Shown here: positions 3,343-19,267 of the stretch, piece after piece
Layout: every line of letters begins with the position of its first letter
How positions within the stretch are numbered: the first letter of the stretch is position 1
IMG/VR virus record: IMGVR_UViG_3300045972_000096
Coordinates: 1 to 28,566 of that record
Length of the DNA: 28,566 nt
Origin: a virus
Direction: 5' to 3' (one strand)
Position numbers and translations under genes: made by a program
Notes under the pieces: model-generated
Seen by the model: the letters and a program-made list of their open reading frames with translations, nothing else
Databases searched by the model: none
What the model was told of the DNA's origin: nothing

Positions 3343-4929
3343 CTACTCCTTTAGTTCATATTCTAGGGTTTCTATTGTAAATTCATTCTTTCTGTATATC
3401 TTTAATCTTTCCCCATAATGTTTGACAGCAAAATTTACATACCTTATCTTCTTGTTGCTGTCCTTGAAAGAGAGGTCATCAACCAAATCAAATAACTTCA
3501 TAAAATCTTTGGTGATGTGTTTTCTCAATCCCCTACCGATGGATTGAATGGTTCTAACTTTACTCTTGGTTCCTGATACAAAAATAATATTATGAATCCT
3601 TTTGATATTAACACCTGTACTCAGTGTAGAATAAGTGGCTGCAAGTACACACTCATCATTGGTTTCCATTCTAGCTTTTATAAGTTTTCTGTCAGCAACT
3701 GATACACTACCATCAATATACATTACCATTTTACCAGTAACTTCAGCTCTCAATCTTTCAAACAAAGGCTTACCATGTGCTTCAATCTTAGTGAACAATA
3801 CTAAAGTGTTACCTTTAAGTTTCTGCACAAGCTTCACAATAAATTTATTTCTGCACTCAAGTTTGTTTACAAAATCAGTTTCCTTAGCATACTTGTTTTC
3901 TCTAGGTGTAGTGGTTTCTAATTCATCATCAAAGTCTTCATCAGTATCTGTAGCATCCTGTATATTAGTTTCATAGTTTAAATATCTCAATGAATTTGGA
4001 TACTTGAGTCTTACAGCATATATTTTCAGTTGTGATATATGTCCAGCATCCTGAAGTGTTTTATATGTGGAGTATGTTCTAATCTCTCCAGTGGCTCCAA
4101 CAGTAGTAAACCAATCTGCTGTCAGTGGGTCAGGAAAGGAACCAGACAAACCAAATCTATATTCAGCATTGATACAGTTTTTTGATATAGCAGCAAAAGA
4201 TTTACTGTTACCAGATTGACCATGAGCTTCATCTACAAGCAGACAATCAAATTTAGCAATCTCATCTTTATCTTTATCAGTGTAGAGTGACTGCCATGTT
4301 GAAAATATAATGTTTCTTTCCAACAGTCTCTTCTTACCTGAGTATATCATACAACAGTTATTTTCTACATCTTCCCAACCATAGTCAGCAAAGTCTGAGA
4401 ATATCTGCTCAACCAGAATGGTAGTAGGAAATATACAAAGACATCTCTTACCCTTAGACACCAACCATCTGATAATGATATAGATTATCAAAGACTTCCC
4501 TGAAGCAGTAGAAGAAGCCATGTTGAGATGTTTTTCACAGATAGCTTCATATGCAGCTTTAAGTTGATAGTCTCTTACTGGAACAGAGTTGTTATGTTCA
4601 TCTCTTACATCAATGTTAAGAGAATCAACAAAAGCTAGGTACTCAGAGTAAGGGACAGTCTCACCCTGCTCATACAACTGCTCTAGGGTATACCTACCCT
4701 TGGCACAAAATTCTTTGACCTTGTAGAGCAAACCTATAGGTAGAGTATTCTCCCATGTGAAGAATCTTAACTTACCATCCCATTGTTTTGCTTTATACTT
4801 AGGATGAAATCTATAGTTGTCTGAGAAAGCAGAAAAGTATTCAGTAAGCTCCCTAGCTATAGAGTTGCTGCATTCTATCCTCAAGGTTGCTTCATTAACT
4901 TTTCTTATCTTTAAATCACTCACTATCAC
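3343..4929 (-). CDS. uvsW: UvsW-type SF2 helicase
   Basis: T4 UvsW is a RecG-like SF2 helicase that unwinds R-loops and branched DNA and switches replication to the recombination-dependent mode. This protein is 528 aa (T4: about 500). The Walker A-like motif SSTASGKS is at 139-146, DEAH at 233-236, a motif III-like GLSGS near 258 and motif VI QSIGRGLRKH toward the C-terminus. The N-terminal ~110 residues (FHPKYKAKQWDGKLRFF) match the UvsW DNA-binding domain pattern. It lies between uvsY and the late sigma gene, with 4 bp overlap to uvsY, so the recombination genes are co-transcribed. Confidence 0.92.
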   Translation of the reverse strand: MIVSDLKIRKVNEATLRIECSNSIARELTEYFSAFSDNYRFHPKYKAKQWDGKLRFFTWENTLPIGLLYKVKEFCAKGRYTLEQLYEQGETVPYSEYLAFVDSLNIDVRDEHNNSVPVRDYQLKAAYEAICEKHLNMASSTASGKSLIIYIIIRWLVSKGKRCLCIFPTTILVEQIFSDFADYGWEDVENNCCMIYSGKKRLLERNIIFSTWQSLYTDKDKDEIAKFDCLLVDEAHGQSGNSKSFAAISKNCINAEYRFGLSGSFPDPLTADWFTTVGATGEIRTYSTYKTLQDAGHISQLKIYAVRLKYPNSLRYLNYETNIQDATDTDEDFDDELETTTPRENKYAKETDFVNKLECRNKFIVKLVQKLKGNTLVLFTKIEAHGKPLFERLRAEVTGKMVMYIDGSVSVADRKLIKARMETNDECVLAATYSTLSTGVNIKRIHNIIFVSGTKSKVRTIQSIGRGLRKHITKDFMKLFDLVDDLSFKDSNKKIRYVNFAVKHYGERLKIYRKNEFTIETLEYELKE

Positions 4930-10366: not shown

Positions 10367-10494
10367 TAATAACCATGCTAGTCATGAACCTTATTTAGAT
10401 GGGAAGAATGGGAACAGATACTCAAGTAAATTAGCTAATTACCTCTGTGTTGAAGGTGATACCTCTTCCCTCTAAATAAAAACTTTTTGATTTT

Positions 10495-10502
10495 TATAAA
10501 TA
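10495..10502 (+). promoter_or_regulatory. T4-type late promoter TATAAATA, cassette A
   Basis: Exact octamer inside a 37-nt block (10475-10511) that is repeated almost exactly at 16149-16186. It precedes the 35-residue ORF. Confidence 0.65.
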
Positions 10503-10536
10503 GAAGTATATGAACATTTTTACAAGGACTAAAGAA

Positions 10537-10935: not shown

Positions 10936-11023
10936 GGTCTCTACAAGTAAGGTTAGCTGGTGCTGACAGATGCCTGTAAAGCATTTCCCATGTGGCAAGG
11001 AGTTCGATTCTGCCTAGAGACCA
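10936..11023 (+). tRNA. tRNA-Tyr (GUA), degenerate copy
   Basis: Acceptor GGTCTCT/AGAGACC, anticodon stem GATGC/GCATT with loop CTGTAAA, long variable region, T-loop TTCGATT, encoded CCA. Oddities: about 7 extra bases between acceptor and a 6-bp D stem (GTTAGC/GCTGAC, loop TGGT), and a bulged G in the T stem. A clean tRNA-Tyr lies at 13756. Confidence 0.65.
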
Positions 11024-11029
11024 CCATAT

Positions 11030-11111: not shown

Positions 11112-11183
11112 ACTTCCTTGCCAGAATAGCTATGGGTCTGTCCTACAAACAGATATAAGTGGGTGCAAGTCCTACAGGAAGTA
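11112..11183 (+). tRNA. tRNA-Val (UAC), noncanonical loops
   Basis: Acceptor ACTTCCT/AGGAAGT perfect, anticodon stem TCTGT/ACAGA with loop CCTACAA (C at 33), T stem GTGGG/CCTAC with T-loop TGCAAGT (G at 55), D-loop GAATAGCTA without GG. Encoded CCA. Confidence 0.72.
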
Positions 11184-11190
11184 CCAATAT

Positions 11191-11260
11191 TCTGAATGCC
11201 CAGTGGAGGGTAGCTCTGTACTATAGGCAGAGAGGAAAGGTTCGACACCTTTATTCAGAG
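11191..11260 (+). tRNA. tRNA-like gene, possible UAU anticodon
   Basis: Acceptor TCTGAAT/ATTCAGA perfect, anticodon stem TCTGT/GCAGA with loop ACTATAG (C at 33), T-arm AAAGG/CCTTT with TTCGACA. The D-arm (GCCC/GGGT or CCC/GGG) is displaced, leaving too few or too many linker bases. Identity uncertain. Confidence 0.45.
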
Positions 11261-11269
11261 CAAGTTTTT

Positions 11270-11341
11270 CGGTGTGTAAGTCAGAGGCAGACGACTCCAT
11301 CTGGAGTGGAGAGGACGGGATTTCGAAATTCCCCACACCGA
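11270..11341 (+). tRNA. Degenerate tRNA-like gene with collapsed anticodon arm
   Basis: Perfect acceptor CGGTGTG/CACACCG, discriminator A and encoded CCA, D stem GTC/GAC with AGAGGCA loop. The anticodon arm folds best as ACTCC-ATCT-GGAGT, leaving no 7-nt loop; the T stem closes with a T-T pair (GGGAT/TTCCC). Possibly a decaying or non-decoding tRNA. Confidence 0.45.
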
Positions 11342-11352
11342 CCAAGTAGGAA

Positions 11353-11381
11353 CCCGACACTTTGTCAGGATTATTGTCGGG
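11353..11381 (+). terminator. Stem-loop, possible terminator
   Basis: CCCGACA (11353-11359) pairs with TGTCGGG (11375-11381); downstream is GTTCTTTTAAAATTTTT. The T run is interrupted, so termination is possible, not certain. Confidence 0.45.
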
Positions 11382-11400
11382 ATATGTTCTTTTAAAATTT

Positions 11401-11548
11401 TTATAGAAGACAAGTGGGGGAACTGGTATACCCTAGAGGCACACACGTCACTTGTAGGTGAATTAACACCTGCTGCCTGTCATTGGGTGGGAGAAATCCA
11501 TTGAAGGTTCGAATCCTTCCTTAGAGAGCAATGACCATACTTCTATAA
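11401..11548 (+). ncRNA. Structured RNA of unknown class, closed by a 9-bp end helix
   Basis: TTATAGAAG (11401-11409) pairs with CTTCTATAA (11540-11548). Inside are ACAAGTG/CACTTGT around a Leu-type D-arm-like hairpin, AGGTG/CACCT, and GTCATTG/CAATGAC enclosing TGG/CCA and a canonical T-arm (GAAGG TTCGAAT CCTTC). It has pieces of a Leu-type tRNA but no acceptor pairing for that T-arm. It may be a remodelled tRNA-Leu or a separate structured RNA. Confidence 0.45.
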
Positions 11549-11556
11549 TTTAATAA

Positions 11557-11627
11557 GCTGCATTAGTATAATGGTATTATGAAAGCCTTCCAAGCTTAGG
11601 ATGTCAGTTCAATTCTGACATGCAGCT
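11557..11627 (+). tRNA. tRNA-Gly (UCC)
   Basis: Acceptor GCTGCAT/ATGCAGC, discriminator T and encoded CCA, D-loop with GG, anticodon loop CTTCCAA, T-arm GTCAG/CTGAC with TTCAATT. Canonical apart from one mismatched pair in the anticodon stem. Confidence 0.88.
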
Positions 11628-11640
11628 CCAAAACAATTAT

Positions 11641-11714
11641 GTCCCTATAGCTCAGTTAGATAGAGCAAGAGTCTTCTAAACTCTAGGTCGTGGGTGCAAG
11701 TCCTACTAGGGATG
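11641..11714 (+). tRNA. tRNA-Arg (UCU), altered elbow
   Basis: Acceptor GTCCCTA/TAGGGAT, D stem GCTC/GAGC with loop AGTTAGATA, anticodon stem AGAGT/ACTCT with loop CTTCTAA, T stem GTGGG/CCTAC. The T-loop is TGCAAGT (G replaces U55) and the D-loop has AG in place of GG. Encoded CCA. Confidence 0.88.
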
Positions 11715-11727
11715 CCAAAATTAGTAT

Positions 11728-11807
11728 AGCTCTGTGTTGGAAAGTATACATGCTAGTTTCAAAAACTAGTGCCGAAAGGATTGAGGGTGCAAGTCCCTCC
11801 AGAGCTA
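11728..11807 (+). tRNA. tRNA-Leu (CAA)
   Basis: Long variable arm (GCCGAAAGG). Acceptor AGCTCTG/CAGAGCT, anticodon stem CTAGT/ACTAG with loop TTCAAAA, T-arm GAGGG/CCCTC with TGCAAGT (G at 55), encoded CCA. Nearly identical in framework to the Leu genes at 12474 and 12559, so these arose by duplication. Confidence 0.88.
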
Positions 11808-11823
11808 CCAGAAAAAAAGATAT

Positions 11824-11906
11824 GCTAGAGTGGTGGAATGGTATACACGTTACCTTGAGGTGGTAATGGAGGAAACTCCATGCAGGTTCAAGTCCTGTCT
11901 CTAGTA
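11824..11906 (+). tRNA. tRNA-Leu (GAG)
   Basis: Acceptor GCTAGAG/CTCTAGT, anticodon stem TTACC/GGTAA with loop TTGAGGT, variable arm TGGAGGAAACTCCA, canonical T-loop TTCAAGT, encoded CCA. From a different Leu lineage than its three neighbours. Confidence 0.88.
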
Positions 11907-11942
11907 CCAATTGGAGTACACATAAGTTTTAAGTGCTCTTCA

Positions 11943-11972
11943 ATCTCCTAGTATAAATACATACAAGGAGAT
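11943..11972 (+). promoter_or_regulatory. Late promoter inside an RBS-blocking hairpin (HNH gene)
   Basis: ATCTCCT (11943-11949) pairs exactly with AGGAGAT (11966-11972), which is the ribosome binding site of the HNH gene. The late octamer TATAAATA (11952-11959) is in the loop. Early read-through RNA would hide the site; late RNA starting a few bases after the octamer would lack the 5' strand and be translated. Confidence 0.72.
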
Positions 11973-11977
11973 AATTT

Positions 11978-12460
11978 ATGGCACGAACATATTCATCAAG
12001 AAAATATACTAAAGAAATTTTAGAAGAAGCAGTAACACAATCTGTGTCATTTGCTGGAGTAACACGGTATTTACAAATCCCAGTTACAGGAAGCAATCAG
12101 ACACACATTAAAAAGATGGTAGTAAAATTTGAGATAGATTTTACACACTTTACTGGTAAGTTGTGGAGTAAAGGAAAGTTTCTACCACAGAGCCAATTAA
12201 CATCAGATGAACTTTTAATTGTGTCACAGAATGATACTCGTACTAAAGTTGCCCTTTTGAAAAGAGCTTTACTTGAAAGGGGTAAAATATATGAATGTGA
12301 GCATTGTCTTATATCTGATGTATATAACAACAAAAGTCTTACTTTGCATATAGACCATATTGACGGAGATTGGAAGAATAATATAGAAACCAATCTAAGA
12401 TTTTTATGTCCGAATTGTCATTCACAGACAAATACATATGGTGGTAGAAATAAAAAATAA
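11978..12460 (+). CDS. HNH endonuclease (homing type)
   Basis: A 160-residue protein with a DNA-binding N-terminal half (SRKYTKEILEEAVTQSVSFAGVTRYLQI, a helix-turn-helix-like segment) and a C-terminal HNH: CEHCLIS, then LHIDHIDGDWKNNIETNLRF, then CPNC. Such free-standing HNH enzymes spread by cutting related phage DNA. It sits between tRNA-Leu genes, splitting the Leu group, as expected of a mobile insertion. Expression is probably late only, because the binding site is locked in a hairpin with a late promoter in its loop. Confidence 0.88.
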   Translation: MARTYSSRKYTKEILEEAVTQSVSFAGVTRYLQIPVTGSNQTHIKKMVVKFEIDFTHFTGKLWSKGKFLPQSQLTSDELLIVSQNDTRTKVALLKRALLERGKIYECEHCLISDVYNNKSLTLHIDHIDGDWKNNIETNLRFLCPNCHSQTNTYGGRNKK

Positions 12461-12473
12461 TATGGCTCTGTGT

Positions 12474-12545
12474 TGGAAAGTATACATCAAAGTCTTAAAA
12501 ACTTTGGCTCGTAAGAGATTGAGGGTTCGTGTCCCTCCAGAGCTA
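12474..12545 (+). tRNA. tRNA-Leu (UAA), long-armed
   Basis: Acceptor GGCTCTG/CAGAGCT, anticodon stem AAAGT/ACTTT with loop CTTAAAA, variable arm CTCGTAAGAG, T-loop TTCGTGT (T at 58), encoded CCA. Second UAA-anticodon tRNA in the window. Confidence 0.88.
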
Positions 12546-12558
12546 CCAGAAAGAATAT

Positions 12559-12638
12559 GGGTCTGTGTTGGAAAGTATACATGCTGGTTTTAGAAGCCAG
12601 TGCCGAAAGGATTGAGGGTTCGTGTCCCTCCAGACCTA
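12559..12638 (+). tRNA. tRNA-Leu (UAG)
   Basis: Acceptor GGGTCTG/CAGACCT, anticodon stem CTGGT/GCCAG with loop TTTAGAA, variable arm GCCGAAAGG, T-loop TTCGTGT, encoded CCA. Confidence 0.88.
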
Positions 12639-12645
12639 CCATTAT

Positions 12646-12718
12646 TGAGGTGAAGCAAAACAGCATCTGCACAGTCCTGATAAGACTGAGACAGTGAGGG
12701 CAGCACTCACCACCTCAA
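12646..12718 (+). tRNA. tRNA-Ile (GAU) with GG in the T-loop
   Basis: Acceptor TGAGGTG/CACCTCA perfect, D stem GCA/TGC, anticodon stem CAGTC/GACTG with loop CTGATAA, T stem GTGAG/CTCAC, encoded CCA. The T-loop is GGCAGCA and the D-loop AAACAGCATC: the D-loop GG is absent and a GG occupies the T-loop. Confidence 0.82.
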
Positions 12719-12734
12719 CCATAAAAGAAACATC

Positions 12735-12763
12735 TTGACAATCAAATGAATTTATGATATCTT
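12735..12763 (+). promoter_or_regulatory. Promoter before membrane protein gene
   Basis: TTGACA, 17 bp ending TTATGA, TATCTT; ATG follows 31 bp later. Confidence 0.65.
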
Positions 12764-12793
12764 CTTACTAGAAATTAAACTTAGGAGGATATC

Positions 12794-13213
12794 ATGTCAG
12801 ATTCATTTGATGATGCAATGGGATTTGTAACAGCAATACTAGGTGTACTTGGAATTTTTATCTTGATAGGTGTTTTGTTTATCAATGTATCAGGTATGCT
12901 AACAATGATTGTGCTACAAGGGTTTGTTAGGATATTAACACCTTGGGATATTAATTATTGGTTTATGTGGGGATTATCAGTACCAATAAGTTATCAGTGG
13001 TGGTACTTCACTGAGAGAACTATAACAGAAAAGTTTCCAGCTAAAAAAGAATGGTGTGTTCCACTTCATTACAGTAATGAAGAGAAAGCTAAATATGCTT
13101 ATGGTATTATAAGTGGAATCATTGGTACTATTTACTTAGTTGATTGTTTTTATTTTAAAACTGGGATTGGTGTTTATTGTACTAGATGTTTCTTTGGAAA
13201 GTTTTTTGGATAA
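12794..13213 (+). CDS. Multi-pass membrane protein, 139 residues
   Basis: Starts MSDSFDDAMGFVTAILGVLG after TTAGGAGGATATC, an excellent binding site. Three probable membrane segments: residues about 10-32, 38-68 (with an aromatic WFMWGLSVPISYQWWYF stretch) and 104-125. A pair of cysteines is near the C-terminus. It has its own promoter. No family recognised; it could alter the host envelope. Confidence 0.72.
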   Translation: MSDSFDDAMGFVTAILGVLGIFILIGVLFINVSGMLTMIVLQGFVRILTPWDINYWFMWGLSVPISYQWWYFTERTITEKFPAKKEWCVPLHYSNEEKAKYAYGIISGIIGTIYLVDCFYFKTGIGVYCTRCFFGKFFG

Positions 13214-13219
13214 AAGTAT

Positions 13220-13247
13220 TTGACAAATAAAAAAAGTATGATATATT
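13220..13247 (+). promoter_or_regulatory. Promoter for a noncoding RNA stretch
   Basis: TTGACA, 16 bp ending AAGTATGA, TATATT. About 340 bases without a coding frame follow before tRNA-Asn. Confidence 0.7.
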
Positions 13248-13253
13248 TGTTAA

Positions 13254-13447
13254 TGGTTGGGTACTCAAGAGGAGTGCTTGTAAAACCTCACAAGGTTTCC
13301 GATAGTTTGACTGACATCATGCACCTGACTCCTTGCTAGAGCAAGTGGATGAAAACTCCCTAAGAAAAAGCCAACATTACTATTAAGGTGAGGGTCTTCC
13401 TGTTATACTAGTTACATGGAAGATAGAGTTAGTCAGTCAATTTTTTA
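13254..13447 (+). ncRNA. Structured RNA candidate with own promoter and terminator-like end
   Basis: Starts just after the promoter at 13220. Helices: GTACTC/GAGTGC (13261-13277), CTTGT/ACAAG (13278-13295), CTTGC-TAGA-GCAAG (13333-13346), TCTTCC/GGAAGA, and a long-range 9-bp pairing TTGACTGAC (13307-13315) with GTCAGTCAA (13432-13440) followed by TTTTTT. No coding frame, tRNA or known ribozyme core recognised. Confidence 0.5.
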
Positions 13448-13448
13448 G

Positions 13449-13592
13449 ACAGGTCTGGGCAAAGAGTAAGAGGAAGGAATATATTCATATAGAGACCATA
13501 GACAATGAGCTATAACACTAATATGATATACCTCTGAAATTAACGTGTACCTGAGAGTGTGCCAAACTCTCCTTGGTCTAATAAAAATTATA
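13449..13592 (+). other. Spacer with hairpins, no gene seen
   Basis: Between the structured RNA and tRNA-Asn. AGACCA (13492) can pair with TGGTCT (13574), and AGAGT/ACTCT closes a 7-nt loop GTGCCAA like a T-arm. It may be a decayed tRNA; I cannot fold a full cloverleaf. Confidence 0.35.
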
Positions 13593-13593
13593 T

Positions 13594-13662
13594 TCCAGTA
13601 TCTTCAAGGTGAAGTCCGACACTGTTAATGTCGTAAGAGAGGTTCGATGCCTCTTGCTGGAG
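13594..13662 (+). tRNA. tRNA-Asn (GUU)
   Basis: Acceptor TCCAGTA/TGCTGGA, very short D-loop (CTTC AAGGT GAAG), anticodon stem CGACA/TGTCG with loop CTGTTAA, T-arm AGAGG/CCTCT with TTCGATG, discriminator G, encoded CCA. Confidence 0.87.
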
Positions 13663-13755
13663 CCATCAAGAGTTAAACAATGTGGGTGACAATAGCAGAA
13701 TCAGTGTAGGTGGTCATACACCTTAGCTAAGAAGCAACGATAACCCATTTTTATT

Positions 13756-13837
13756 GGATGATTAGTCTAATGGTAAGACAGCAGACTGTAAATCTGCCAC
13801 TCATAGAGTATTGGTGGTTCAAATCCATCATCATCCA
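13756..13837 (+). tRNA. tRNA-Tyr (GUA), canonical
   Basis: Acceptor GGATGAT/ATCATCC, D-arm GTCT AATGGTA AGAC, anticodon stem GCAGA/TCTGC with loop CTGTAAA, variable arm ACTC-ATA-GAGT, T-arm GGTGG/CCATC with TTCAAAT. Clean in every position, unlike the copy at 10936. Confidence 0.92.
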
Positions 13838-13852
13838 CAAGGAGAACAAAAT

Positions 13853-14494
13853 ATGACAAATCCATTTCTTTCAGCAGCAAAGTTATTTGGTTATGTAGAA
13901 CCAATGCCAATGACCCATTGGCAGGATAAGGTTGTTGAATTTGCTACTACTAAGTATGAAAAGAATCAAGTTATGTTCATGGGTGATTCAATCACTGAAG
14001 GTTGGGCATCCACTCAATACCTTAAAGGTTATATAAACTTTGGTGTTGCTGGTGACATGACTAATGGTACACTTGCTCTTATGAATCTGGTAGAGAAAGT
14101 AGAACCTAAAAAGGTTATTGTCAACATTGGTACTAATGATATTGGGTTTAATATTCCTCAAGCAACTACTGAAGCTAACTATCGTAAATTAACAATGAGA
14201 CTTGGTAACAAGGTTGGAGCAGAGAATGTTGTTTGTTGTGCTATCAGACCTATAAACAATATGTTGCCTATGGCACGTAATAGAAACAATGTCATTATCA
14301 AAAGCTACAATGGTATGATTAAAAACATTTGTACAGCAAATGGATATATCTTTGAGCCTGAAACATATCCTTGTCATAATATTGTTACTATGGGAATGGA
14401 TTTTTTGAATCCCTACCATACTGTAGATGGACTTCATTTAAGTCCTCTAGGATATCAGAAAGAGTTTGAAATCATACAAAAATATTTGGTATAG
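13853..14494 (+). CDS. SGNH/GDSL-family hydrolase
   Basis: Start chosen at 13853, after CAAGGAGAACAAAAT; a longer frame would begin inside tRNA-Tyr. 213 residues. SGNH blocks are clear: block I MGDSITEGW with nucleophile S46, block II GVAGD near 64-68, block III IGTND with N95, block V DGLHLSP with D192 and H195. Enzymes of this type hydrolyse esters of lipids or sugars; phage members may deacetylate surface polysaccharide. No signal peptide, so it acts in the cytoplasm or in the virion. It sits within the tRNA array. Confidence 0.88.
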   Translation: MTNPFLSAAKLFGYVEPMPMTHWQDKVVEFATTKYEKNQVMFMGDSITEGWASTQYLKGYINFGVAGDMTNGTLALMNLVEKVEPKKVIVNIGTNDIGFNIPQATTEANYRKLTMRLGNKVGAENVVCCAIRPINNMLPMARNRNNVIIKSYNGMIKNICTANGYIFEPETYPCHNIVTMGMDFLNPYHTVDGLHLSPLGYQKEFEIIQKYLV

Positions 14495-14566
14495 TCCAGC
14501 CTAGCTCTAACCGACAGCATGAGGATTCCTGAAGGTATTCTAGAACACATCAGGATTAACTGGACA
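14494..14566 (+). other. Nested hairpin element between genes
   Basis: GTCCAG/CTGGAC encloses TCCTGA/TCAGGA and a CTC/GAG arm whose loop contains ACAGCAT, like the D-loop of the odd tRNA-Ile at 12646. Size fits a tRNA but no T-arm forms. Probably a degenerate tRNA. Confidence 0.35.
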
Positions 14567-14576
14567 CTCTTAACAT

Positions 14577-14647
14577 ACTCCATTAACTTAATAGTAAAGT
14601 AATCACCTTATAAGTGATAATCACAGGAGCATAACCTGTATGGGGTA
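14577..14647 (+). tRNA. tRNA-Ile (UAU), noncanonical loops
   Basis: Acceptor ACTCCAT/ATGGGGT, D stem ACTT/AAGT with loop AATAGTA, anticodon stem ATCAC/GTGAT with loop CTTATAA (U33 kept), T stem ACAGG/CCTGT with loop AGCATAA. Neither the D-loop GG nor the T-loop TTC is present. Confidence 0.75.
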
Positions 14648-14667
14648 CAAACTAACAGGAGGATACA

Positions 14668-15777
14668 ATGGCAGACATCACCCTAACTGATGAACAGGGA
14701 ATGGCAGTAACATTGATTAAAGAATGGTTTAGTGATAAGTTTGCAGCAAAAACACCTTTTATATTAGCTGGTTTAGCAGGAACAGGTAAGTCAACAATAG
14801 TACCATATATCATTGATGACTTAGGTTTACAAGATAATGAAGTTTGTTATTGTGCCTTCACTGGCAAAGCTGCTATGGTACTCAGACAAAAAGGATTACC
14901 AGCAACAACAATTCATTCTTTGATTTATAAACCTTTAGTGTCTAAAGATAAAAATGGTGTAGAGACTGTTAGGTTTATAAAGAATCTTCCTGAAGATATG
15001 CCACTTGATATTTGTTTGATTGTTGTAGATGAAGCTTCAATGGTAGGAGAAGTATTAAAGAAGGACTTGGAATCTTTTGGTATACCAGTTTTATATGTTG
15101 GTGACCACGGACAGCTACCACCAGTGTCAAGAGACCAAATCAATCTGATGCTCAATCCTAATTATAGATTAGAAACAATCCATAGACAAGCTCTGGACAA
15201 TCCTATCATATGGGTTGCCAACCAAGCAAGACTTGGAAAGAGTATTAAGTATGGAAGTTATGGTACTACAGTACAAAAGATAACAGATAGAAAGGTTTCA
15301 TTAGACCTGATGAAACTTGCATCTCAAATCTTATGTGGTAAAAATAGAACAAGAACTAGTTTGAACAATCAGATTAGGACTTCCAAGGGAATGAAGCTTG
15401 GATTACCAATGCCATCTGATAAGTTGATATGCCTAAAGAATAACAACATGAATGGTCTTATCAATGGGATGACAGGTGAATGTATGTCCTATGAAGAAAA
15501 GACCTCCAAATTGAGTTTTAGGAGTGATGAAGGGTATGAATGGCTCAGTGTGAAGATAGATGATAATATCTTCAGAGGTGAAGAGCCAAAGAAGTATGAT
15601 AAAGAGATTGAACAGTTTGATTTTGGTTATGCTATAACAGTACATAAAAGTCAAGGTAGTCAGTTTCAAAGAGTACTATTGTTTGAAGAATATCTTGGTA
15701 GAGGTGCTGACCATAACAAATGGTTATATACAGCAGTCACCAGAGCAGTTGATAAACTTATTATAGTGGGAGCTTAA
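14668..15777 (+). CDS. dda: Dda-like SF1B DNA helicase
   Basis: T4 Dda is a 5'-3' helicase acting at replication start and in removing bound proteins. This protein is 369 aa (T4: 439). Walker A GLAGTGKS is at 35-42, motif Ia CAFTGKAA, motif II VVDEAS at 119-124, motif III GDHGQLPPV near 145-153, motif V/VI AITVHKSQG and LYTAVTRA near the C-terminus. AGGAGGATACA precedes the ATG. It is separated from the leftward replication operon by about 9 kb and is embedded in the tRNA array. Confidence 0.92.
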   Translation: MADITLTDEQGMAVTLIKEWFSDKFAAKTPFILAGLAGTGKSTIVPYIIDDLGLQDNEVCYCAFTGKAAMVLRQKGLPATTIHSLIYKPLVSKDKNGVETVRFIKNLPEDMPLDICLIVVDEASMVGEVLKKDLESFGIPVLYVGDHGQLPPVSRDQINLMLNPNYRLETIHRQALDNPIIWVANQARLGKSIKYGSYGTTVQKITDRKVSLDLMKLASQILCGKNRTRTSLNNQIRTSKGMKLGLPMPSDKLICLKNNNMNGLINGMTGECMSYEEKTSKLSFRSDEGYEWLSVKIDDNIFRGEEPKKYDKEIEQFDFGYAITVHKSQGSQFQRVLLFEEYLGRGADHNKWLYTAVTRAVDKLIIVGA

Positions 15778-15779
15778 AG

Positions 15780-16046
15780 ATGGTAACAATGCATGATGTG
15801 ACTACTAATACCTCTCCTACAAACAGAGTGAGAGTATTAGTGATAGATGATGGTGGTACTGCTTATGCTACTGCTGCTACACTGAACAAATTAGGATATG
15901 ATGTAGAAATTCAATCTGAACCAGTTGCTTATATCAAAGCTCCAACCTATGATGATTGTAGAGCATATATGGACAAAGTAAAGGATTGGGAAGTCAATGA
16001 TGTTAGAAGTGGTTGGAAACACAAGAGAAAAAATAAAAAGCATTGA
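15780..16046 (+). CDS. Hypothetical 88-residue protein
   Basis: Starts two bases after the dda stop, with GGGAG upstream. Contains VRVLVIDDGGTAYATAATLNKL, which looks like one beta-alpha unit, and a very basic C-terminus (WKHKRKNKKH). Unrecognised; co-translated with dda. Confidence 0.65.
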   Translation: MVTMHDVTTNTSPTNRVRVLVIDDGGTAYATAATLNKLGYDVEIQSEPVAYIKAPTYDDCRAYMDKVKDWEVNDVRSGWKHKRKNKKH

Positions 16047-16061
16047 TGTGAAAATAAATGC

Positions 16062-16090
16062 TTGACAAACAGAATAAGTTGTGGTATAAG
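16062..16090 (+). promoter_or_regulatory. sigma70-type promoter, cassette B
   Basis: TTGACA, 17 bp ending AGTTGTGG, TATAAG, matching the cassette A promoter at 10338. Confidence 0.75.
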
Positions 16091-16127
16091 TATAAACATC
16101 TCGTAGTGGTTTTCTTTTTGCCCAGTT

Positions 16128-16155
16128 TGAGAGGTATGACAGTACCTCTCAAATA
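16128..16155 (+). terminator. Hairpin ending the short early RNA of cassette B
   Basis: TTTGAGAGGTA and TACCTCTCAAA pair perfectly (11 bp) and are followed by TAAAAACTTTTTGATTTTT. It lies between the early promoter and the late octamer, so the early RNA would be only about 70 nt. Confidence 0.6.
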
Positions 16156-16171
16156 AAAACTTTTTGATTTT

Positions 16172-16179
16172 TATAAATA
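16172..16179 (+). promoter_or_regulatory. T4-type late promoter TATAAATA, cassette B
   Basis: Exact octamer inside the block shared with cassette A (16149-16186 versus 10475-10511). It precedes the 38-residue ORF. Confidence 0.65.
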
Positions 16180-16208
16180 GAAGTATAGACAATTTTTAGG
16201 AGCTTCAA

Positions 16209-16325
16209 ATGAAGTCATTTACATTTACATTTACAAAATCACATACACAAAAACAGTCATGGACAGATTCCATGAGTGAGTGCCGTGATGCACGTCCTAA
16301 AGGGGATGGGGATAAAAAGATTTAA
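16209..16325 (+). CDS. Tiny ORF of cassette B, 38 residues
   Basis: Starts MKSFTFTFTKSHTQKQSW, with TAGGAG upstream, and is followed by a strong terminator. Ser/Thr and Lys rich, with no family. Its position between a private late promoter and terminator is the same as that of the 35-residue ORF at 10537. Confidence 0.5.
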   Translation: MKSFTFTFTKSHTQKQSWTDSMSECRDARPKGDGDKKI

Positions 16326-16348
16326 TCTAGTAAGAAATAGATTTTTCT

Positions 16349-16381
16349 AAAACCCTCTCCAGAAATGGCAGAGGGTTTTTT
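16349..16381 (+). terminator. Rho-independent terminator, cassette B
   Basis: AAAACCCTCT and AGAGGGTTTT pair around an 11-nt loop, then TT. Similar core (ACCCTCT/AGAGGGT) to the cassette A terminator. Confidence 0.9.
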
Positions 16382-16394
16382 GTTTTAAAGATAT

Positions 16395-16465
16395 GCTGGT
16401 GTAGTTTAACGGAAGAACATCTGACTTTCTATCAGAGAACGAGGGTTCGACACCCTTCACCAGTA
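16395..16465 (+). tRNA. tRNA-Glu (UUC)
   Basis: Acceptor GCTGGTG/CACCAGT, D-arm GTTT AACGGAA GAAC, anticodon stem TCTGA/TCAGA with loop CTTTCTA, T-loop TTCGACA, encoded CCA. Canonical. The 108 bp after it hold two imperfect copies of a GGACTATTA-n-ATGAAA string and no convincing gene. Confidence 0.9.
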
Positions 16466-16573
16466 CCAAACATAATGGTTCATATATGGACTATTATAGA
16501 TGAAAATTGAGTTAATGTACCATATAAGGACTATTACAATGAAACGAAAACAGAAAGTACGAAAACAGAATAT

Positions 16574-16647
16574 GGGGGTATAACTCAATTGGAAGAGTAA
16601 CTGGCTCTTAACCAGTAAGTTGCAAGGTTCAAGTCCTGCTGCCCCTA
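16574..16647 (+). tRNA. tRNA-Lys (CUU)
   Basis: Acceptor GGGGGTA/TGCCCCT, D-arm ACTC AATTGGAA GAGT, anticodon stem ACTGG/CCAGT with loop CTCTTAA, T-loop TTCAAGT with a bulged A in the T stem, encoded CCA. Confidence 0.88.
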
Positions 16648-16652
16648 CCAAT

Positions 16653-16726
16653 GGACATGTAGTGTCAATGGTTAGCACAGCAGACTTTTAATCTGCCAAG
16701 TCTCAGTTCAAATCTGAGTATGTCCA
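16653..16726 (+). tRNA. tRNA-Lys (UUU)
   Basis: Acceptor GGACATG/TATGTCC, D-arm GTGT/GCAC with GG, anticodon stem GCAGA/TCTGC with loop CTTTTAA, T-arm CTCAG/CTGAG with TTCAAAT, encoded CCA. Canonical. Confidence 0.92.
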
Positions 16727-16745
16727 CCAAAATATAAGGAGTACT

Positions 16746-16889
16746 ATGACAGATGCATTAGATAAAGCAGTAGAATATTATTTTCTAACTCCTGAAGCTA
16801 TGCAACTAATTAACAAAAGAAAAGAGGAAGTAGATAATAAAAAGATAGAAGAAGAGTTTTTACATTCAATCTTTCTTTTAAAACAATAA
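16746..16889 (+). CDS. Small ORF between tRNAs, 47 residues
   Basis: Starts MTDALDKAVEYYFLTPEAMQ after TAAGGAGTACT, a strong site. Helical, highly charged (KRKEEVDNKKIEEEF), ending 5 bp before tRNA-Ser. Unknown function. Confidence 0.6.
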   Translation: MTDALDKAVEYYFLTPEAMQLINKRKEEVDNKKIEEEFLHSIFLLKQ

Positions 16890-16894
16890 AATAT

Positions 16895-16978
16895 GGAAGA
16901 GTAACCAGACAGGGTTCTGGACTTGCTTGGAAAGCAATGAGATGGTAACACATTGGGTTTCGAATACTCACTTTTCCA
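16895..16978 (+). tRNA. tRNA-Ser (GGA)
   Basis: Acceptor GGAAGAG/CTTTTCC, D-arm CCAG/CTGG with GG, anticodon loop TTGGAAA, long variable arm, T stem TGGGT/ACTCA (T-A at 53-61) with TTCGAAT, encoded CCA. Confidence 0.85.
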
Positions 16979-16989
16979 CCAAAGTAAAT

Positions 16990-17080
16990 GGTAAGCATCT
17001 GGCTGGATGAAGAGCAAGTCTTGAAAACTTGTAGGACAGTCTAAGAAACTGTTTTTAGGGTTCAAGTCCCTAGCTTACCT
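16990..17080 (+). tRNA. tRNA-Ser (UGA)
   Basis: Acceptor GGTAAGC/GCTTACC, anticodon stem CAAGT/ACTTG with loop CTTGAAA, long variable arm ACAGT/ACTGT, T-arm TAGGG/CCCTA with TTCAAGT. Canonical except discriminator T. Confidence 0.9.
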
Positions 17081-17089
17081 CATTAGTAT

Positions 17090-17160
17090 GGCACATTCTT
17101 ATATAGGTATTATCCTTGTCTGTCTAACAAGAGAAGAGGGTTCAAGTCCCTCATGTGCTG
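17090..17160 (+). tRNA. tRNA-Asp (GUC)
   Basis: Acceptor GGCACAT/ATGTGCT, anticodon stem CTTGT/ACAAG with loop CTGTCTA, T-arm GAGGG/CCCTC with TTCAAGT, discriminator G, encoded CCA. The D stem is weak. Confidence 0.88.
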
Positions 17161-17174
17161 CCAATACATGCTAC

Positions 17175-17218
17175 TGTTTCATTTTCATAAATACATATAA
17201 ACCAATGGAGATGAAACA
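17175..17218 (+). promoter_or_regulatory. Late promoter inside a start-blocking hairpin (GIY-YIG gene 1)
   Basis: TGTTTCAT (17175-17182) pairs exactly with ATGAAACA (17211-17218), the segment between ribosome binding site and start, including the A of the ATG. CATAAATA (17186-17193), one base off the late octamer, is in the loop. Confidence 0.65.
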
Positions 17219-17904
17219 TGAAAAAATATTTTTTCGTTTATAAAACAACTAGAACAGATGGAAGATATTATTTAGGAATGCATAGTACTTCAGAATTAAA
17301 TGATGGGTATCTTGGTTCTGGTAAGATACTTAAACAATCTATTAAAAAACATGGAGTAGAACAACATACTAGAGAAATTTTGGGTCATGCTTCTTCTATT
17401 GAAGAATTAAAATTATTAGAGCAAAAAATAATCACAAGAGAACATTTATCCAATCCTTTGTGTATGAACTTAAAACTTGGTGGAGAAGGTGGTTGGGACT
17501 ATATACATATTAATAATTTGCATGATAGAACAGGATTAAAGCATACAGAAGAAGTTAAACAATTAATAAGTGATATGAAAAAAGGTAGAAAAGCTTCAGA
17601 TGAAACTAAACAAAAAATATCTGATAATCATTTTTCAAAAAATAACCCAGACAAGTTTTTAGAGGTAATAACAAAGAATGGTAAGCTACCAAAATCTCAA
17701 TCACATAGAGATAAAATTTCAGCATCAAGAAAAGAAAATAATTTAAGAGGGGAAAATTCTCCCAATTTTGGTTTAAAGAGAGAACGTATCACTTGCCCTT
17801 ATTGTTTAAATACTTATGCAAAACATATAATAAGTAGATTTCATCTTGAAAATTGTAAGAATTACAAAGCACAGAATATACTTACTTCGAAATCAAACTT
17901 TTAA
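17218..17904 (+). CDS. GIY-YIG homing endonuclease (Seg-like)
   Basis: 228 residues. The GIY-YIG core is at the N-terminus: FFVYKTTRTDGRYYLGMHST, then YLGSGKILKQSIKKHG and ELKLLEQKIITRE with the catalytic Glu. NUMOD3-type DNA-binding repeats follow (GLKHTEEVKQLISDMKKG, RKASDETKQKISDNH, a third near 155). The C-terminus has a CxxC...H...C zinc finger (TCPYCLNTYAKH...HLENC). Such enzymes cut related DNA lacking the gene and drive its spread. It is inserted in the tRNA array, with expression probably restricted to late times by the hairpin before it. Confidence 0.88.
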   Translation: MKKYFFVYKTTRTDGRYYLGMHSTSELNDGYLGSGKILKQSIKKHGVEQHTREILGHASSIEELKLLEQKIITREHLSNPLCMNLKLGGEGGWDYIHINNLHDRTGLKHTEEVKQLISDMKKGRKASDETKQKISDNHFSKNNPDKFLEVITKNGKLPKSQSHRDKISASRKENNLRGENSPNFGLKRERITCPYCLNTYAKHIISRFHLENCKNYKAQNILTSKSNF

Positions 17905-17948
17905 TTTGACATGTAACACAAGTATCTTCGTTTTTCTTTGTAATCTTT

Positions 17949-18021
17949 GCACACTTAGTTCAGTAGTAAGAACAATCCTTTGGTATAGGATATGTCAGGA
18001 GTTAGAATCTCCTAGTGTGCT
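17949..18021 (+). tRNA. tRNA-Thr (GGU), altered elbow
   Basis: Acceptor GCACACT/AGTGTGC, D-arm GTTC AGTAGTAA GAAC, anticodon stem ATCCT/AGGAT with loop TTGGTAT, T stem AGGAG/CTCCT with T-loop TTAGAAT (A replaces C56), encoded CCA. The D-loop has AG in place of GG. Confidence 0.85.
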
Positions 18022-18059
18022 CCAACTATGTTATTGTGTATTAGATTTACTAGGTTATT

Positions 18060-18132
18060 GTGTAAGAAGGCAATGTGGAAAGCCGTAAGATTGTGGCTCT
18101 TATGTTAGTGGGTTCAACTCCCACCCTACACT
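18060..18132 (+). tRNA. tRNA-His (GUG)
   Basis: Acceptor GTGTAAG/CCTACAC (one mismatch), D stem GGC/GCC, anticodon stem TAAGA/TCTTA with loop TTGTGGC, T-arm GTGGG/CCCAC with TTCAACT, encoded CCA. Discriminator T instead of the usual C. Confidence 0.85.
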
Positions 18133-18199
18133 CCATAATGGAAAGTATAGTTTACATTGATGTATGTTTTTGTAAACAATAAGAAACATAGTTTGCATT

Positions 18200-18285
18200 G
18201 GAAGGTTAAGTAGTTAAGTGACTACAACTGTTTGCTAAACAGATTGCACTTGAAAGAGTGTGGGATGCAAGTTCTCAGCCTTCCT
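18200..18285 (+). tRNA. tRNA-Ser (GCU), altered elbow
   Basis: Acceptor GGAAGGT/GCCTTCC, anticodon loop TTGCTAA, long variable arm CACTT-GAAA-GAGTG, T stem TGGGA/TCTCA with T-loop TGCAAGT (G at 55). D-loop lacks GG (AAG). Encoded CCA. The 65 bp before it hold only a GTTTAC/GTAAAC hairpin. Confidence 0.85.
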
Positions 18286-18296
18286 CCAAATAGTAT

Positions 18297-18384: not shown

Positions 18385-18455
18385 AGGGGTTTAACATAAA
18401 ATTAATGTGTCAGTCTCTGAAACTGAAAAAGGTGGAGAGTTACCATCAACCCTTG
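18385..18455 (+). tRNA. tRNA-Gln (CUG), noncanonical loops
   Basis: Acceptor AGGGGTT/AACCCTT, D stem ACAT/ATGT with loop AAAATTA, anticodon stem TCAGT/ACTGA with loop CTCTGAA, T stem GGTGG/CCATC with loop AGAGTTA, encoded CCA. Both elbow motifs are missing. Confidence 0.78.
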
Positions 18456-18469
18456 CCAACAAATAACAT

Positions 18470-18557: not shown

Positions 18558-18599
18558 TTTTTGTACTCTTTTTATAAATACTATAAAGGAGAACAAAAA
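18558..18599 (+). promoter_or_regulatory. Late promoter inside an RBS-blocking hairpin (GIY-YIG gene 2)
   Basis: TTTTTGTACTC (18558-18568) pairs with GAGAACAAAAA (18589-18599) except one A-A mismatch, covering part of the AAAGGAG site up to the ATG. TATAAATA (18573-18580) is in the loop. Confidence 0.68.
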
Positions 18600-19267
18600 T
18601 GAGAAAAGAAAAACTGTTTCATTATATCTATAAAATTACTAGACATGATGGTAAATATTATATTGGTATGCACTCTACAGACAATATCAATGATGAATAT
18701 TTTGGTTCTGGTAAACGTCTTTGGTATTCTATTAAAAAACATGGTAAAGATAAACATACCAAAGAGATAGTTGAGTTTTGTCCTGAAAGAAACTTTCTCA
18801 GAGAACGAGAAAAAATATTTGTCAATATTTCAACACTATCAGACCAAATGTGTTTAAATTTAATAACTGGTGGTACAGGGTTTGATGGTATAAACATTTC
18901 ACCAGAACTACAGGGATTGGGTCGAATGAAACATTTGACCCTTTTAAAGGAAGATTTAACATATAGAAAAAAGTACCAAGATACTATGAGAGAGTCTAAA
19001 AAAGAATTGATGAAAGAATTTTATAAATTAGGAGTAGCAGCAAATAAAATTAAAAATCCAAATGGAACCTTTAATGGAAAACGACATACAGAGGAATCCA
19101 AAAAGAAGATTGGTGAGGTTACTTCTAAGTTAACAGGGGAGAAAAATTCACAATTTGGAACCTGCTGGATAACCAAGAATGGGCTAAATAGAAAGATTAA
19201 AATAGAAGAATTGAGTATATGGGAGTTAGAAGGATGGAACAGAGGTAGAAAAGGAAATAACAAATGA
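18599..19267 (+). CDS. GIY-YIG homing endonuclease 2
   Basis: 222 residues, homologous to the enzyme at 17218: FHYIYKITRHDGKYYIGMHS, YFGSGKRLWYSIKKHGKD, FLREREKIFV, then LNLITGGTG. A single NUMOD3-like motif (GKRHTEESKKKIGEVTSKLT) lies near residue 160, and no C-terminal zinc finger is present. It is the second copy of the family in the array, so the cluster is a repeated target for mobile endonucleases. Overlaps the next small gene by 4 bp. Confidence 0.88.
   Translation: MRKEKLFHYIYKITRHDGKYYIGMHSTDNINDEYFGSGKRLWYSIKKHGKDKHTKEIVEFCPERNFLREREKIFVNISTLSDQMCLNLITGGTGFDGINISPELQGLGRMKHLTLLKEDLTYRKKYQDTMRESKKELMKEFYKLGVAANKIKNPNGTFNGKRHTEESKKKIGEVTSKLTGEKNSQFGTCWITKNGLNRKIKIEELSIWELEGWNRGRKGNNK

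Follow-up and report, generated by a model that had tools for sequence, protein, structure and literature searches.

Positions 18 and 55, and 19 and 56, of the tRNA elbow change in step in viral and cellular tRNAs

Results

We analyzed the transfer RNA (tRNA) array of the IMG/VR virus record IMGVR_UViG_3300045972_000096 (28,566 bases, possibly a fragment; this whole stretch is called the window below) and found that here, as in many other viral and cellular tRNAs, the contacts joining the D-loop to the T-loop are exchanged as pairs: position 18 changes in step with 55, and 19 with 56. All nine window tRNAs with G55 have A18, compared to 2/20 of those with U55, 18/20 of which carry G18 (Fisher p 5.5e-6). 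The reading that we favor, at a probability of about 85%, is that the G55 tRNAs are folded and usable and have an alternative elbow, A18.G55 in place of G18.U55 (pseudouridine 55), with 19-56 either G-C or separately swapped for another Watson-Crick pair. ARAGORN found 22 tRNAs in the window and Rfam, at its own cut-offs, 18. Further tRNAs were added to the ARAGORN set with a structure scanner whose score depends only on stems, U33 and frame and not on which letters the D- and T-loops contain. The resulting elbow census comprises nine G55 and 20 U55 tRNAs, in which irregular D-loop registers were assigned by hand; tRNA-like stretches such as 10938-11026, 11192-11263 and 11412-11531 were left out of the counts.

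Four of the nine, all on the plus strand like the other tRNAs described here, share the T-loop TGCAAGT and have A18-G19: tRNA-Val(UAC) (11112..11186, D-loop GAATAGCTA), tRNA-Arg(UCU) (11641..11717, D-loop AGTTAGATA), tRNA-Leu(CAA) (11728..11810, D-loop AAAGTAT, its register taken from comparison with Leu(GAG) at 11824), and tRNA-Ser(GCU) (18200..18288, D-loop including TTAAGTGA). ARAGORN reported the first three, and the structure scan found Arg as well as Ser, which ARAGORN misses. The first-pass annotation had picked out this T-loop, and its G55, in exactly these four tRNAs. It had also described their D-loop GG as absent, which is right in that no GG stands at 18-19, but G18 alone is lost (to A18), while G19 is kept. 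That such tRNAs are unable to carry pseudouridine 55, as it had argued, follows from the G itself.

Five more window tRNAs have G55, and every one has A18. ARAGORN misses all five. The structure scan found tRNA-Ile(GAU) (12646..12721, D-loop AACAGCAT, T-loop GGCAGCA with G54, G55 and G58), tRNA-Ile(UAU) (14577..14647, 7-nt D-loop AATAGTA, T-loop AGCATAA with A54, G55 and U58), tRNA-Phe(GAA) (19868..19943, D-loop ATCTAGTGA, T-loop GGCAGAA) and tRNA-Trp(CCA) (20494..20568, D-loop ACCAGCTA, T-loop GGCAGCA), each with A18-G19. In tRNA-Gln(CUG) (18385..18458, 7-nt D-loop AAAATTA, T-loop AGAGTTA) both contacts are swapped, A18-U19 standing with G55-A56. The canonical contact of G18 with U55 is thus present in none of the nine, and that of G19 with C56 in 8/9, the exception being the U19 and A56 of Gln(CUG). 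The cloverleaf, U33 and 7-nt anticodon and T-loops are present in 9/9 (seven by the structure scan, Val and Leu(CAA) by ARAGORN). A swap confined to 19-56 occurs in tRNA-Thr(GGU) (17949..18024), which has G18-U19 and U55-A56.

In order to count the two positions in other viruses, we collected loci with a T-arm pattern containing UGC (at least 120 viral loci) and with a D-loop pattern (at least 120 loci). Among the T-arm matches listed, 34/124 parse as tRNAs, of which 29 have AG, two were called GG and three lack G19 by the script rule; both GG-called tRNAs can also be read as AG one base earlier. Many of the 90 unparsed matches among those listed are halves of transfer-messenger RNA (tmRNA). 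A very specific A18 D-loop pattern matched four contigs. The other tRNAs of the listed loci served as a set unselected by the fetching patterns, reduced from 571 to 535 by deduplication at 90% and a score limit (92 contigs). Here G55 occurs 88 times without GG and once with it, compared to 424 tRNAs with GG and 22 without among those lacking G55. The pattern that would have spoken against the coupling, UGC T-loops with an intact GG in similar numbers, was therefore sought and not found. In the 167 tRNAs with a 7-nt D-loop, where the register is fixed, the combinations of 18 and 55 are G-U (122), A-G (35), G-C (8), G-G (1) and U-U (1), such that A18 goes with G55 in 35/35; the mutual information between the two positions is 0.70 bits, compared to 0.004-0.128 for five D-T position pairs that are not in contact. 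All eight U54-C55-C56 T-loops with G18 come from two viral contigs (L060 and L121) and represent a third 18-55 combination, G.C. Both elbow states are seen in 31/48 anticodons, and 23 viral contigs carry usual and swapped tRNAs side by side. In 20 named records the T-arm pattern gave 23 matches, among them three A18.G55 tRNAs (Asn of HGTV-1, Val and Lys of Bambus) and two tmRNAs. tRNAs annotated as "Pseudo" in Synechococcus phage B23 were considered as swap candidates and rejected, the nine tRNAs found there by the scanner having GG with UUC or AUC.

Since raw counts of tRNAs are not independent, we built trees from the sequence outside both loops (53 columns, D- and T-loops removed; weakly resolved). 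The viral tree shows 65 changes at position 18, and among 403 unselected viral tRNAs there were 18 independent pairs on supported branches, of which 17 changed in step and none was opposed (p 1.5e-5). A tree of viral and cellular tRNAs together gave 30 independent pairs, 29 in step and 0 opposed; in an earlier run, with pattern-selected rows among the input, 27/30 were in step. Together with the 535-tRNA counts, the tree test strongly supports the first-pass suggestion that D-loop and T-loop changes are coupled as a swapped 18-55 contact, and shows the coupling to be far more general than the four tRNAs on which it was based.

For the contact between 19 and 56 we made a prediction: if it is a Watson-Crick pair free to change, D-loops with G18-A19 should be accompanied by U56. 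A scan for D-loops with N-G-A yielded 100 cloverleafs in the loci listed. Those with N=G, read as G18-G19-A20, have UUC in 81/81; the other 19 consist of 17 with G18-A19, all of which have UUU and hence the predicted U56 (17/17), and two with A18-G19 and UGC. For the 20 unselected viral tRNAs without C56, manual reading showed position 19 to be the Watson-Crick partner in 16 and G19.U56 to be present in two. The swap types seen at 19-56 are A-U, U-A and C-G. Positions 54 and 58 also vary together: in the 535 viral tRNAs they are U-A in 477, G-G in 22, A-U in 18, C-A in 9 and A-A in 6, and in viral tRNAs G54 goes with G58 in 23/24 and A54 with U58 in 19/25.

The tmRNAs follow the same 18-55 coupling as the tRNAs. 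A search for the T-arm together with the 5' half in the fetched loci gave 83 hits, many from related loci and few with UUC, with AG accepted at two spacings. AG stands at the D-loop site in 76/78 hits with a UGC T-loop. The UUC hits number five, of which one is not a tmRNA (L015) and the tmRNA-like ones have GG in 4/4 when read by hand; one of these (L118) was scored AG by the script, which also allowed a spacing of three, and is GG by hand. Named phages agree, with UGC and AG in Bambus and CcrBL9 and UUC and GG in Marzo and Comrade. Clostridial tmRNAs, inspected by eye, showed the same coupling.

In cellular genomes, the UGC T-arm pattern was found in at least 118 loci; among the matches listed, 51/118 parse as tRNAs, 47 of them with AG, including tRNA-Cys of several archaea. 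The other tRNAs of the listed loci (100 after deduplication) comprise 63 with G55 and without GG, four with G55 and GG, 32 with GG and without G55, and one with neither. We then examined all 28 tRNAs of Mycoplasma sp. SG1 (L370-L397): 15 are usual, five have A18.G55 (Asp, one Met(CAU), Gln, Trp(UCA) and Glu), five have Watson-Crick swaps at 19-56 (Gly(UCC), Trp(CCA), Leu(UAG), Asn and Ile), one has G19.U56 (Thr) and two are unexplained. Almost half of the tRNAs of this organism thus have non-standard, mostly paired elbows. Asp, Gln, Glu, Asn and Ile(GAU) are each represented by a single copy in this set of 28 and, judged from gene content, must serve translation, so that swapped elbows of both kinds must work in cells. 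No TruB_N match was present in SG1, compared to 14/14 control genomes that have one; SG1 has two RluA-type synthases. According to a study of minimal translation in Mollicutes (PMC4014445), hemoplasmas, M. genitalium and M. pneumoniae lack TruB. The link between TruB loss and the swap is based on one genome, SG1.

Other features of the window were noted in passing. Stretches 10938-11026, 11192-11263, 11258-11346, 11412-11531 and 13253-13590 (plus strand) look tRNA-like by eye, with a T-arm and CCA-like ends and an odd anticodon or D region. Open reading frames between the tRNA genes (11978-12460, 17218-17904 and 18599-19267, plus strand) have by eye the look of HNH or GIY-YIG homing endonucleases. 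Almost identical leaders at 10472-10515 and 16150-16190 (plus strand) each precede a short reading frame and contain TATAAATA, which we take to resemble a T4-type late promoter. A gene for a Ro60-like protein (23388-24917, plus strand) has YrlA-like RNA matches just 5' of it (region 23109-24917; 38 and 24 bits, under the Rfam cut-off), and the two are possibly a phage Ro60/Y RNA pair. The nearest relatives of UvsW (3343-4929, minus strand) are in T4-like phages of cyanobacteria and Pelagibacter (34-37%). The only BLAST matches of the window array in phages were 34 bases long and fell in three records of Edwardsiella phages, and close named relatives were accordingly not found; a search for related loci via a Dda-like helicase gave 19 pattern stretches, none of them confirmed.

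Discussion

The above results point to an elbow whose letters may change as long as the contacts are kept. In the usual elbow, residue 18 slots between 57 and 58 and contacts 55, and 19 pairs with 56, as described in passages of PMC4810234 and PMC7912444. A part of PMC2258182 describes the U-A-closed UGNRA loop as a type R1 lonepair triloop, on whose loop G an outside A commonly docks to give a GNRA-like fold. The letters U-G-N-R-A at 54-58 are present in Val, Arg, Leu(CAA) and Ser of the window (TGCAA) and absent from the other five G55 loops, where 54 and 58 are G and G or A and U; an outside A going with the loop G is seen through covariation only, as the A18 of the 7-nt D-loops. T-loops with UGCAA or UGCGA would fit UGNRA, with A18 as the outside A docking on G55. 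As A18 is placed where the outside A must originate, A18.G55 is probably a sheared pair with GNRA-like docking, a geometry that we read from sequence. Position 57 is A in 59/92 G55 and 106/439 U55 tRNAs, a bias that the docking model neither predicts nor forbids. The pair would shift by compensated double substitution where a cell or virus is independent of TruB and pseudouridine 55, and selection would hold the shape of the elbow and not its letters. The mixture of both states in one array (23 viral contigs), the several pairs reached, and the occurrence in cells favor such compensated drift.

A number of observations speak against this reading. In the window, tRNA-Leu(UAA) (12464..12548) and tRNA-Leu(UAG) (12559..12641) combine A18 with U55 without compensation. 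The first-pass annotation had taken these two to mean that the reverse link is not strict; this holds for the window, whereas outside it the link is almost strict (35/35 in the 7-nt D-loops). Among cloverleafs matching the D-loop or T-arm pattern, one (L310) is uncompensated, and 2/20 viral tRNAs without C56 (L064 and L014) fit neither pairing. In the genome loci 4/67 unselected G55 tRNAs keep GG, in SG1 the elbows of Pro and Leu(CAA) are the unexplained ones, and the two deviating tmRNAs have AA (L259) and a doubtful GG call (L346). The register of D-loops without GG is partly a choice, 7-nt loops excepted. In cultured phages, the large tRNA arrays scanned are canonical, with no A18.G55 tRNA in eight named-record loci (tRNAs per locus: Pumpernickel 35, Marzo 15, Comrade 16, B23 9, CcrBL9 16, LR745206 10 and 0 in two stretches, Rb1 0). 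Finally, TruB_N is present in 5/7 searched genomes with swapped tRNAs or tmRNAs, which means that loss of TruB is not required and is at most permissive.

As an alternative to compensated drift, the swap in phages might have been selected because it conceals tRNAs from nucleases or other host enzymes that recognize U54-pseudouridine55. G55 indeed cannot become pseudouridine, some variants have also lost U54 or C56, and a T-loop cutter exists: the CdiA-CT E479 toxin cleaves tRNA-Arg2 between T and pseudouridine, according to a portion of PMC9086364. However, the same swap is found in archaea and bacteria, 20 tRNAs of the same window array retain U55, the swap is spread over many anticodons, most of which show both states (31/48), and the host anti-phage tRNA nucleases covered in the part of PMC10264068 consulted act in the anticodon loop. 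Nuclease escape is unnecessary to explain the swap and, as its cause, appears improbable to us, although the swap may have been selected because it evades enzymes or toxins acting on the T-loop. It is also rather unlikely, in our estimation, that A18.G55 is a second standing elbow of tRNA and tmRNA, in phages, archaea and bacteria, that functions in the absence of pseudouridine 55 and whose invisibility to TruB (and probably TrmA) and to T-loop-cutting toxins has been selected in phages and is not incidental.

Decaying pseudogenes that lost their elbow letters at random are a very unlikely explanation: ARAGORN misses 43/91 viral A18.G55 tRNAs compared to 7/418 usual ones, but decay would not be expected to change two positions in step, as the 535-tRNA counts and the tree show, where the changes do not lack compensation as those of a pseudogene would; moreover, stems, CCA and U33 are retained (the scanner itself requires these), and swaps occur in single-copy tRNAs of SG1. 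Equally unlikely is a single old A18.G55 lineage copied around and counted often: the tRNAs are indeed mutually related, yet the association holds after deduplication at 90%, position 18 changes repeatedly and in step with 55 on the (weakly resolved) trees, and tmRNA shows the same coupling.

The viral tRNAs supply a covariation test for 18-55, 19-56 and 54-58 together and reveal replacements that work in nature. G18-pseudouridine55 and G19-C56 are called universally conserved or invariant in parts of PMC4810234 and PMC6337575, an invariance that left covariation testing hardly possible before. The viral tRNAs also point to natural tRNAs, single-copy in a cell, that must translate without pseudouridine 55, which makes the roles of this modification and of TruB directly testable. 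Because ARAGORN is blind to about half of the viral A18.G55 tRNAs, phage tRNA sets are undercounted. We found no description of an A18-G55 swap in natural tRNAs in the literature searched, whose coverage mostly excludes subscription papers. The combination may already have been made in the laboratory: the Steinberg group is said to have used suppressor tRNAs in work on the L-shape, where an active A18/G55 combination may already be reported, and Pan et al. 2006 reportedly deals with the 18-55 pair.

Comparison with known systems shows which features are shared. The staphylococcal peptidoglycan tRNA-Gly, which is non-translational, lacks G18-G19 and TpsiC, both sides being lost together. Compared to the canonical elbow of G18-pseudouridine55 and G19-C56 (described in parts of PMC4810234, PMC7912444 and PMC6337575), the swapped tRNAs have the same cloverleaf, the same D-loop/T-loop contacts 18-55 and 19-56 and a 7-nt T-loop, but they have A.G at 18-55 and no pseudouridine 55, and 19-56 and 54-58 covary as well. 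With the UGNRA type R1 triloop, as outlined in PMC2258182, they share the U-G-N-R-A letters and the outside A going with G; the difference is the location in a tRNA elbow, with a geometry deduced from sequence. tRNA-Pyl, in which G13 goes with C55 according to a section of PMC7609411, is likewise a natural tRNA without G18-G19 and TpsiC whose elbow is rebuilt from other letters; it differs in its small D-loop and in its frame, whereas the viral tRNAs keep the standard frame and have one contact replaced. Finally, the A54/A58 pairs of eukaryotic tRNA-Ala and initiator tRNA, mentioned in part of PMC7566577, also exchange one T-loop tertiary pair for another, compared to which the 535 viral tRNAs have A-A in six cases next to G-G in 22, A-U in 18 and C-A in nine.

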